A DNA stretch of 64,000 nt, taken from positions 1 through 64,000 of the forward strand of contig CAIULN010000095.1 in assembly GCA_903900025.1 (NCBI GenBank), written 5' to 3'. Both the position numbers and the translations under genes were made by a program. Numbering within the stretch: position 1 is the first letter of the stretch; every line of letters begins with the position of its first letter. The stretch comes from an uncultured Methanomicrobiales archaeon (lineage in GTDB: Archaea; Halobacteriota; Methanomicrobia; Methanomicrobiales; Methanospirillaceae). The notes beneath the pieces are model-generated. The model saw only the letters and a list, made by a program, of their open reading frames with translations, was not told the DNA's origin and searched no databases. Below are positions 50,314-54,022 of the stretch, piece after piece.

Positions 50314-52059
50314 TTACTTTTTGCCGACACCGTAATATTTCCGCAGGAAATCGTAGATCTTCTCTGATTCGATATATCCCTGGTCAAGTTTATGGATGAT
50401 ATCGTTGATTACATGCGCGAGTTTGATGATCTTTTCCGAATACGTGTTCTGCATCAGGTCTGCGGTGCCGATGATGCCCTGGACAGGGTTGCGGATGTGG
50501 TCGTTAAGGAGGGCAAACTGCTGCATATTCTTTTCGATCTGCTGGAACGCCTCCATTTTAAGCCGTTCAATGTCATGGCGTTCGGTGATGTCACGTGCAA
50601 TTGCAAGGACCGCCTTCTGACCAAAATAATCAAAGACACGGGCATTGATTTCCACAGGGATCATCTTCCCGCCCATCGTCCGGTAGCCGGACTCGAACAG
50701 CACATATCCATCCGCCCAGAGCCGCCCGGTCAGTGGCAGGGTTCCCTCACCCTCATCCGGTATGATAATGGCCGCGGGCGACATTGCCAGCAGATCCTCC
50801 CGTGAATAACCAAGGATGTCGGTTGACGCATCATTTGCCCCGATGATGGATCCGGTAAGGTCCCCCCCGCTGAACCGGTAAATGATGACGGGATCGGTGA
50901 TGCTGTTGAAGAACAGCCGGTAATTTTCCTCGCTCTGGTTCAGGCGTTGCCGGACCTGTTTCTGGGACATTTCCAGTTCACCGATCATTCCGTTAACGTC
51001 ATTCCCAAGTTCAGCGATCTCGTCGTCCCCGGATATCGCGATACGAGCAGAAAAATCCCGTTTTTTCCCGATGAAATTCACCCGGGAGCTCAGGCTGGAG
51101 ATCCTTGATAATATCGTTTTTTCGAGCAAAAGAAGCGTCACAAGCCCGAAGATCAGGCCGGCAGCCATCAAGAGTCCGATAAAATACTGTGTTGTCGATC
51201 GTCCCTGGTCATAGATATCACGGACAATGCTGACCCGCAGGATGAGTGCCGGTTCCCCATAAATATCCCGGATCAGCGAATACGTGGCAAGGGTAGTGCT
51301 GTTGAGTACCATGGAAGTTGTGGGTGCATCGACCGTCATATATTCAGCCCCTTCGCGCTGGATGAACAAGCCCGGCTGCGATACAAGCCCGGAAACGGCC
51401 GTTTTGAAATCCAATGGAAGGGTCGGGTCTTTGTATCCATACAAAACAAGCGGAAGTTGAGCCATCGATGAGAGCCTGGCCACCTCTGTGCTGTCGAGGT
51501 ATCTCCCCATAAGAATATAGCCGATACTATGGAGCTGCCCGGAATCTGCATAGACGGGACGGATCACAAGCATGAGGGGCCCTTCCGGAAGCTGTTGAAT
51601 TCCCATGATCCCTGTTGTTGAATTTAATTGTGTCCCGAAAACATTTTTCGATGAGAGAACAGAGCGGAGTTCTTCGGGAATGGACATCTGCCGGTGAGCA
51701 TTGAGATCGTAACCCTCCCCGGCAATAATCACCCTTGAAGAGTTTGACAGGATAATATAATTGAACTGGAGGCGTTCAAACGTATCAAGGCTCAGCCGTG
51801 ACCACTGCACGGCAGAAGAAGTGCCGGTCAGGACGCCACGGGTATCATCTCTTGATGCCCAGTCTGCTGCCATTGCATCCAGCGTGTTGATGTCGTTTCC
51901 AAGCGCAACGAGGACCCGGTTCGTGTCTTTTTCTGCACTGCGCAATTCGGTATTTGAGAACCCGCCAAGTACGACAATTTCTGATAACACCAACAGGACG
52001 AGGAGCAGGCTCAGAAGCGTTATGCAGATAATCGCCAGTGTTTTTTTTCGCAGGTCCAC
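50314..52059 (-). CDS. CHASE4-HAMP-PAS sensor without a kinase ATPase domain
   Basis: A 581-residue membrane sensor starting at GTG 52059 behind gggaggag. One helix (about 8-31), an extracellular CHASE4 domain (ADWASRDDTRGVL...), a second helix (about 288-310), a HAMP linker (SSRVNFIGKKRDFSARIAISGDDEIAELGNDVNGMIGELEMSQ), one PAS domain (about 385-495, DPVIIYRF to AIARDITERHDIE) and a short helical end with NDHIRNPVQGIIGTADLMQ, similar to a histidine-kinase H box. The N, G1 and G2 boxes of the ATPase are absent, so it cannot autophosphorylate. It is the last gene on the minus strand before the trp operon. Confidence 0.8.
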   Translation of the reverse strand: MDLRKKTLAIICITLLSLLLVLLVLSEIVVLGGFSNTELRSAEKDTNRVLVALGNDINTLDAMAADWASRDDTRGVLTGTSSAVQWSRLSLDTFERLQFNYIILSNSSRVIIAGEGYDLNAHRQMSIPEELRSVLSSKNVFGTQLNSTTGIMGIQQLPEGPLMLVIRPVYADSGQLHSIGYILMGRYLDSTEVARLSSMAQLPLVLYGYKDPTLPLDFKTAVSGLVSQPGLFIQREGAEYMTVDAPTTSMVLNSTTLATYSLIRDIYGEPALILRVSIVRDIYDQGRSTTQYFIGLLMAAGLIFGLVTLLLLEKTILSRISSLSSRVNFIGKKRDFSARIAISGDDEIAELGNDVNGMIGELEMSQKQVRQRLNQSEENYRLFFNSITDPVIIYRFSGGDLTGSIIGANDASTDILGYSREDLLAMSPAAIIIPDEGEGTLPLTGRLWADGYVLFESGYRTMGGKMIPVEINARVFDYFGQKAVLAIARDITERHDIERLKMEAFQQIEKNMQQFALLNDHIRNPVQGIIGTADLMQNTYSEKIIKLAHVINDIIHKLDQGYIESEKIYDFLRKYYGVGKK

Positions 52060-52293
52060 TGCCTGTCTCCTCCCGCAGACGGAATAGTGCGATTAAGATT
52101 GTTATGCCGCCAACCAATAAAGGTTCTTTTGGCAGAGGAGCATGAGCCCGGGGTGACCTCCTGCCGATGCACGGGCACATCCTGGTGTAAACCGTTGCCG
52201 TTTTTGGACCTGAACTGTCCGGGGTATGTATGGTGCAGGAATGGGGGGGCAGGTGGATGATCCGCTGAACCGTGTTCGTTTCTGCATATTAAA
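52060..52293. other. Divergent intergenic region
   Basis: Spacer between the CHASE4 sensor and the trp operon. It contains the sensor's ribosome site on the left and no convincing gene; short open frames on the minus strand lack start signals. The right end runs into the A/T-rich trp control region. Confidence 0.4.
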
Positions 52294-52349
52294 TGTAATA
52301 ATTTATACATTATTCATCAAAAAATTACAACAATGTATAAATATGTACA
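52294..52349 (+). promoter_or_regulatory. trp control region with two TGTA-N8-TACA elements
   Basis: Two 16-bp elements share the same architecture: TGTAATAATTTATACA (52294-52309) and TGTATAAATATGTACA (52334-52349), with start positions exactly 40 bp apart, almost four helical turns. The second contains TGTACA, the core of the TRP box bound by TrpY in Methanothermobacter. The TATA-like tttataca (52302-52309) falls inside the first element, so binding would block transcription of trpE. No trpY-like gene is adjacent. Function as an operator is inferred from symmetry, spacing and position. Confidence 0.6.
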
Positions 52350-52483
52350 AATTACACCTCTAAGCCAGTCAGGCAGTGCTTCGCACCGGGAATTCTCTCT
52401 GCCCGTGCAACAGGCCGTGCGGAATGGTCCCTACTGTCGAAACACAGATCTCTGGCCAGCATATGGATGGTGATGCCAGTGGA

Positions 52484-54022
52484 ATGGAAATTGCCCCGAT
52501 GAACAGACCCCTTGAACTGAATCTCAGCATTGATGAATATTGTACCGCAGTGAATACCCAGCCAAAACCGCTGGTCATCCCGTTGTGCGCAGAACTGCCA
52601 TTGCCGCAGATCTCCCCGCTGGATGTGTACACCACACTGAAAAAAGATCGCGGGTTTCTCCTTGAATCGATTGACGGGAGCGAAAAGATCGCCCGGTACT
52701 CCTTTGTCGGTCTCGACCCGTCATGCATCATCACGATTGGCAATTCGGTGGAGATCACCGGTACCGAACCCTTTGTCTCAATCGCGCGGTTCCCCAAAGG
52801 AGCAAACGCGGTCGACAACATCCGTTCAATCCTCTCGCGGTTCCATTACGTGAACGTGAAAGCCCCGCGGTTCTTCGGGGGCATGGTCGGGTACTTTGCC
52901 TATGATATTGTCAGTTCACTCTTCAGGCAGGTACCGGAGAAGCGCAGCAGTTCCCTGCCGGGGTCCCCACAGGCGCGGTTCATGTTCACCAAGGACTGCG
53001 TCGTCTTTGACCACCGGGACCAGAAGCTCTTCCTGTTCAGCAGCCCGTTTCTGACCTACGATTCCGATCCATCCGCAGAATACCAATCCTGCACTGATAC
53101 GATCACCCTGCTTGCAGACCGCATCGCTGCCCTCGCAGAGCACCAGCCTTTTTCTCCAAAGGGGCAGGTGAAGCAACGGGACGACCCGGTGCACTTTCAC
53201 GAAGTGACACAAAAAGAGGCGTTCCAACAGGCCGTGGAATGTGTGAAGGAGCACATCGCTTCGGGCGACATCTTCCAGGCCGTGATCTCGCGGTGCCTTG
53301 AATGCCCCGTCAAAGGGGACCCTTTCCTGCTCTATGAGTCACTGCGGGAGATCAACCCAAGCCCGTACATGTATTACCTCGATTTTGGCGATGAGCAGGT
53401 GATCGGGGCGAGCCCGGAGATGCTCATACGCGTCGAAAAACGGCGCGTGACGACCGTGCCGATTGCCGGCACGCGCCCGCGGGGGAAGACCCCGCAGGAG
53501 GACGTGGAGCTTGAAAAGGATCTCCTCTCCGATGAAAAAGAGCGTGCCGAACACACGATGCTGGTGGATCTCGCCCGGAATGACGTCGGGAGGGTGTGCC
53601 GGTTCGGGTCCGTGCAGGTCGGCGAGTTCATGGGGATCGAAAAATTCTCCCACGTCCAGCACATCGTCTCGACCGTGAGCGGCGTACTGAGGGATCACCT
53701 CGATGCGTACGATGCCCTGAAGTCCTGTTTTCCCGCAGGTACCGTCTCGGGCGCCCCGAAGATCCGCGCCATGCAGATCATCGGGGAGCAGGAGCAAGAA
53801 CCCCGCGGCCTCTACGCAGGTGCGGTCGGGTATATCGGCTTTGACCGGAGCCTCGAGTTCGCGATTGCCATCCGCACGATCATCGTGAACGCCGGGCGTG
53901 CACGGATCCAGGTCGGTGCCGGTATTGTCGCGGATTCAGTGCCCGAGAACGAGTGGCAGGAGACCGAGAGCAAGGCAGCAGCCATGAAGCGGGCGATCGA
54001 GCGTGCCGGGGTGGCCTCATGA
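52484..54022 (+). CDS. trpE: Anthranilate synthase component I
   Basis: A 512-residue chorismate-using enzyme. The tryptophan feedback pocket is recognisable (GFLLESIDGSEKIARYSFVGLDP), and the catalytic part contains FQAVISRCLECP, SPYMYYLDFGDEQVIGASPEML, PIAGTRPRGKTPQEDVELEKDLLSDEKERAEHTMLVDLARNDVGRVC and FPAGTVSGAPKIRAMQII. ATG 52484 has a ggtga site 8-9 bases upstream; ATG 52499 (MNRPLELNLSIDEY) is also close to the usual start, and the frame is open to 52376 without ribosome site. First gene of trpEGDCFBA. Confidence 0.93.
   Translation: MEIAPMNRPLELNLSIDEYCTAVNTQPKPLVIPLCAELPLPQISPLDVYTTLKKDRGFLLESIDGSEKIARYSFVGLDPSCIITIGNSVEITGTEPFVSIARFPKGANAVDNIRSILSRFHYVNVKAPRFFGGMVGYFAYDIVSSLFRQVPEKRSSSLPGSPQARFMFTKDCVVFDHRDQKLFLFSSPFLTYDSDPSAEYQSCTDTITLLADRIAALAEHQPFSPKGQVKQRDDPVHFHEVTQKEAFQQAVECVKEHIASGDIFQAVISRCLECPVKGDPFLLYESLREINPSPYMYYLDFGDEQVIGASPEMLIRVEKRRVTTVPIAGTRPRGKTPQEDVELEKDLLSDEKERAEHTMLVDLARNDVGRVCRFGSVQVGEFMGIEKFSHVQHIVSTVSGVLRDHLDAYDALKSCFPAGTVSGAPKIRAMQIIGEQEQEPRGLYAGAVGYIGFDRSLEFAIAIRTIIVNAGRARIQVGAGIVADSVPENEWQETESKAAAMKRAIERAGVAS

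Follow-up and report, generated by a model that had tools for sequence, protein, structure and literature searches.

Rows of TRP-box-like hexamers in ten-base steps before tryptophan genes of Methanomicrobiales, with TrpY as their probable regulator

Elements before trpE and their conserved core

In the window, the whole stretch of 64,000 nucleotides that was analysed, the trpE gene of an uncultured Methanomicrobiales archaeon is preceded by two palindromic elements of the form TGTA-N8-TACA, and the locus raises the question of what the repeated unit is and which protein reads it. The distal element (TGTAATAATTTATACA, 52294-52309) and the proximal element (TGTATAAATATGTACA, 52334-52349) are 40 bp apart and occupy the positions given in the original prediction, an earlier reading of the same DNA. 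The pattern has three matches in the window, compared with a mean of 0.19 in shuffled sequences, and none of 100 shuffles reached three; the third match (30126) is located within a coding ORF. The search for further copies that had been proposed located 10 places in the entire 1.75-Mb draft genome. The proximal element includes a predicted TATA box (TATAAATA, 52336-52343, + strand), which thus lies inside the operator, together with TGTACA (52344-52349). The usual archaeal TATA spacing would place the transcription start near 52362-52367.

The trpE gene (52484-54022, + strand) was identified by the Pfam domains PF00425 (Chorismate_bind) and PF04715 (Anth_synt_I_N). It heads a trpEGDCFBA-like operon, the ORFs of which run to 58911, the later genes being assigned from a reading of their sequences. 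The start was set by the position of a probable Shine-Dalgarno sequence, GGTGAT (52469-52474, + strand), which lies within GGTGATGCCGGTGGA(A)TG; because the latter is conserved in most relatives, ATG at 52484 is the likely start. The conservation of this stretch (52469-52486) exceeds that of a plain Shine-Dalgarno sequence, and the start is ATG or TTG among relatives. Divergent from trpE, a CHASE4-HAMP-PAS protein is encoded at 50314-52059 on the - strand; its HisKA match stays below the cut-off, and its end is apparently not long enough for the ATPase domain of a kinase.

Comparison of the trpE upstream regions of relatives revealed a conserved core, ACAAYAATGTATAWATRTGTACAAA (52327-52351, + strand). 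A search of 61 genomes of the order that allowed up to three mismatches found this core at 47 places, spread over 38 genomes, and the reversed pattern nowhere. Nearly all of these places (45 of 47) precede trpE or trpB2, which codes for a second tryptophan synthase beta subunit. The order is probably Methanomicrobiales, as the trpE element recurs in a genome named as Methanocorpusculaceae. Families f4 and f5 have trpE closely behind trpB2 and without an element of its own. The expected conservation in relatives thus holds for the proximal element, which is kept through the order, and fails in part for the distal palindrome, which is partly conserved and mainly within genus g1.

Two of the 47 places are of separate interest. 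One (L077, G047:C3:26659-26683) is the only non-trp place; it carries the core with two mismatches where a short ORF begins, which is methyltransferase-like by its sequence and has no Pfam match. The other (L084, G026:C37:1639-1663) is a well-kept operator followed by decayed pieces of trp genes; its genome has no TrpE match, as if the trp operon had been lost recently and the operator left over.

Before trpB2, the core was found in 48 promoters at up to six mismatches. These include the promoter in the window's own genome (C73, L102), the upstream region of which contains TCAATAAAGTATATATTTGTACAGT. In nearly all genomes the core begins 38-42 bp before the ATG start codon, and the trpB2 mRNA is therefore probably about leaderless. 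In some other orders of the phylum, GTAC-centred rows, mostly with 10-bp steps, were observed before trpB2 (L323, L327, L324 and L302), at different positions relative to the start codon; other orders in the sample have no 10-bp TRP-like rows before trpB2, for example at L326, L331 and L332.

Six boxes in ten-base steps

The TRP box consensus of Methanothermobacter is TGTACA, and the resemblance of the proximal element to it, already pointed out in the original prediction, proved meaningful. Six hexamers related to this consensus begin at exact 10-bp steps on the + strand of the window. Box 1 (TGTAAT, 52294-52299, 4/6 matches) and box 2 (TATACA, 52304-52309, 5/6) are the left and right halves of the distal element. 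Box 3 (TCATCA, 52314-52319, 3/6) is weak, and its final CA falls in a conserved column pair (-8/-7). Box 4 (ATTACA, 52324-52329, 4/6) is followed by box 5 (TGTATA, 52334-52339, 5/6), the left half of the proximal element, which overlaps the start of the TATA box, and by box 6 (TGTACA, 52344-52349, 6/6), the right half, located just past the TATA box. Together the six boxes have 27 of 36 matches to TGTACA; when 52280-52370 was dinucleotide-shuffled 20,000 times, no shuffle reached this score in any phase.

The same phase is observed across the promoters of the order. Column conservation displays CA pairs at -18/-17, -8/-7, 2/3, 22/23 and 32/33, which is a ten-base repeat. When TGTACA is scored at each offset, sharp peaks stand at -40, -30, -20, -10, 0 and +10 above a background of about 1.5/6, with further peaks at +20 and +30 at trpE. 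Over 90 promoters the mean is 4.1/6 at offset -10 (box 4) and 5.2/6 at +10 (box 6); the peaks at -30 and -20 correspond to boxes 2 and 3, and offset -40 (box 1) is enriched in trpE promoters yet weakly conserved. The offsets from -40 to -20 and those at +20 and +30 lie outside the pattern by which the promoters were aligned. When each genus is represented by a single sequence, the boxes beyond the search core score 2.62 at trpE compared with 1.63 in shuffles (z 9.5) and 2.39 at trpB2 compared with 1.58 (z 5.2), both z values being upper bounds, as kinship above the genus level remains in the sample. Both promoter sets have hexamer autocorrelation maxima at 10, 20, 30 and 40, and the 10-bp period is absent at 159 other TATAWAT sites of the same loci.

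Since boxes recur every 10 bp, TGTA-N8-TACA can be read as a pair of boxes separated by one helical turn, and the 40-bp distance between the elements as four steps of a single array. Two independent 16-bp palindromes were rejected as a description, given that conservation in the same phase extends to columns beyond them (CA at -18/-17, -8/-7, 2/3 and 32/33). The claim of real operators over the TATA box is borne out by core conservation, shuffles and phase tests; the tandem palindromes of that claim stand as sites, and their unit is better described as TRP-box-like hexamers in 10-bp steps.

A TrpY homologue encoded on another contig

TrpY of M. thermautotrophicus represses trpE and trpY via TRP boxes; its homologue in T. 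kodakarensis has no regulatory role at trp, and the branches that hold the TrpY homologues of other methanogens were reported as unexamined (PMC6737238). A 2008 paper by Karr is concerned, by its title, with 'TrpY regulation of trpB2 transcription'. Methanobacteriaceae genomes, reached by a histone query and then searched with TrpE, have a divergent gene of 165-175 aa at five trpE loci, the product of which matches NCBIfam NF053754, 'TrpY family transcription regulator' (219.9 bits), and carries invariant residues that include G149 (alignment A1). Their trpY-trpE intergenes contain TGTATATTTTTGTACA, TGTATATATTTGTACA, TGTACATTATTATACA, TGAACATTTATGTACA and TGTACAGATATATACC. Among spacings of 6-15 bp, the best or joint best box pair is that of 10 bp in 5 of 5 trpY-trpE intergenes and 6 of 6 trpB2 upstream regions, and the pair sits just upstream of BRE/TATA.

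With the Methanobacteriaceae TrpY alignment as query, 56 of the order's 61 genomes have a single homologue, as do all 49 genomes of good quality. In the window's genome this homologue is a 166-aa protein (G000:C20:74525-75022, - strand) that matches NF053754 TrpY_fam with 207.7 bits at a cut-off of 180. It had been noted that no trpY lies next to trpE, which is correct, and that the regulator would be either distant or new; the single homologue, encoded on contig C20, fits the former. Several points weigh against TrpY as the regulator: the T. kodakarensis homologue leaves trp uncontrolled; the protein here is only 33-36% identical to the Methanobacteriaceae proteins; G149, an important residue of M. 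thermautotrophicus TrpY, is not conserved in alignment A2; and trpY is unlinked to trpE and trpB2, being on another contig in this genome and without linkage in any relative examined. The trpY promoter itself contains TGTATATTTATATACG 41 bp before the ATG, with two weaker boxes 10 bp apart. This pair reads TGTATA-N4-TATACG, and variants of it are present in many relatives and absent or poor in some.

The AlphaFold model of the homologue (pLDDT 92) is all-helical and HTH-like in its N-terminal half, with a C-terminal ACT fold. Foldseek matched the model to ACT domains. Lrp/AsnC (feast/famine) regulators likewise combine a helix-turn-helix with an ACT-like ligand domain, whereas TrpY forms a separate family (NF053754) on which Lrp-family proteins (ST1022 and Lrp) superpose poorly (TM about 0.3). 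A sequence search of the PDB with TrpY returned no significant match. A PF01842 (ACT) search of the same genome for TrpY recovered other ACT proteins only, because the ACT domain of TrpY is too divergent for that model.

TrpY exceeds the cut-off in 115 of 120 genomes of the phylum, including genomes that have no trpB2. Because it is nearly universal, the co-occurrence of TrpY and operator is weak evidence, and it was dropped as proof. Genus g2 (G008 and G024; 85% and 62% complete) is the only sampled genus that lacks TrpE, TrpB2 and TrpY together. Near trpE and trpB2, no neighbouring regulator is common to the relatives across genera, and only lineage-specific genes were found. Genera g6, g9 and g11 have an HTH-PAS gene upstream of trpE (L129, L094, L136, L137, L138 and L089), which may be unrelated or may encode a lineage-specific regulator.

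Candidate control by TrpY and its alternatives

We consider it probable that the array is bound by the TrpY homologue, which would repress trpE in the presence of tryptophan, and also trpB2 and, weakly, trpY; that the regulator of the array is TrpY appears very probable. Binding, the tryptophan ligand and repression are proposed by analogy with M. thermautotrophicus, and we infer cooperative assembly on the boxes. The row of TRP-box-like hexamers, running through the TATA box, would be the operator-promoter of the trpEGDCFBA operon. The exact 10-bp spacing puts all boxes on the same face of the helix, where TrpY dimers may fill them by assembling side by side. With tryptophan on the ACT domain, the complex would cover BRE/TATA and exclude TBP/TFB, so that trpE is repressed; the same kind of row would repress trpB2, and the shorter row would weakly autoregulate trpY. 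The TrpY regulon in the order would then probably comprise trpE, trpB2 and, again probably, trpY. In M. thermautotrophicus, further TrpY assembly is reportedly required for trpB2 to be repressed, and insertions reportedly disturb this repression; a phased array would be in keeping with such behaviour.

Other explanations were weighed against control by TrpY. Chance or ordinary AT-rich promoter sequence is scarcely credible as the origin of the elements: the half-sites are short, the region is AT-rich and TATAAATA alone accounts for part of the core, but the reversed control (0 of 61 genomes), the phase tests, the shuffles and the TATA control contradict it. Dinucleotides that are periodic at about 10 bp favour histone wrapping, and a histone gene is present in a Methanocorpusculaceae genome (L241). 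The period is nevertheless very improbable as a means of positioning an archaeal nucleosome in place of a specific regulator, as the signal is a specific hexamer that occurs almost only at trpE and trpB2 and is absent at other TATA boxes.

Two further alternatives concern the protein. TrpY might bind as an activator or dual regulator instead of a plain repressor, in keeping with Tar, which activates trp in T. kodakarensis from a palindrome upstream of BRE/TATA (PMC6737238), and with the Methanobacteriaceae pair located just upstream of these elements. We regard this as improbable, since the strongest boxes in the order overlap or follow the TATA box, where bound protein would block TBP. It is unlikely, if less so, that a different, still unnamed regulator binds the array and that TrpY has another role here. 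The T. kodakarensis TrpY that does not act on trp (PMC6737238), the presence of TrpY in nearly every genome of the phylum with or without trpB2, and the HTH-PAS gene upstream of trpE in three genera all point in that direction; against this, the box consensus, the 10-bp pairing and the targets match those beside Methanobacteriaceae trpY, and no other regulator gene recurs by trpE or trpB2 across genera.

For TrpY itself, a more tentative proposal, which we hold as possible without leaning towards it, is a one-sided filament on phased TRP boxes in which the TATA box is itself a box. The response to tryptophan would be graded by how many boxes a promoter has (about six for trpE, four to five for trpB2 and two for trpY), and this form of TrpY control would be general in methanogens, the Methanothermobacter version being one arrangement of it. 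The TrpY/TRP-box system is known, and what appears new is that trpY is unlinked, that the array extends across the TATA box and that a 10-bp rule holds throughout the order. One unexamined branch of TrpY thereby gains a likely function, a binding rule (hexamers at 10 bp) and targets across a whole order, and the locus exemplifies an archaeal operator in which the TATA box belongs to the unit.

The nearest known operators are those of Tar and of M. thermautotrophicus TrpY. The operator of Tar (TK0271) in T. kodakarensis, TGGACA-N8-TGTCCA, precedes trp and related genes (PMC6737238), and resembles the elements described here in being a palindrome with an 8-bp spacer before trp. It differs in its half-site, its position upstream of BRE/TATA, its activating role, its unrelated regulator and its coverage of aro and tyr-phe operons; the elements before trpE, with half-sites TGTA and TACA, do not match the Tar motif. 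With the TrpY/TRP-box system of M. thermautotrophicus, the array shares the consensus and the protein family NF053754. Its targets (trpE operon, trpB2 and probably trpY) make up the regulon reported for TrpY of that species (PMC6737238 and the title of Karr 2008). It differs from that system in that trpY is unlinked, being neither beside nor divergent from trpE, in that the strongest boxes overlap the trpE TATA box or directly follow it instead of lying upstream, and in that the rows reach six boxes.
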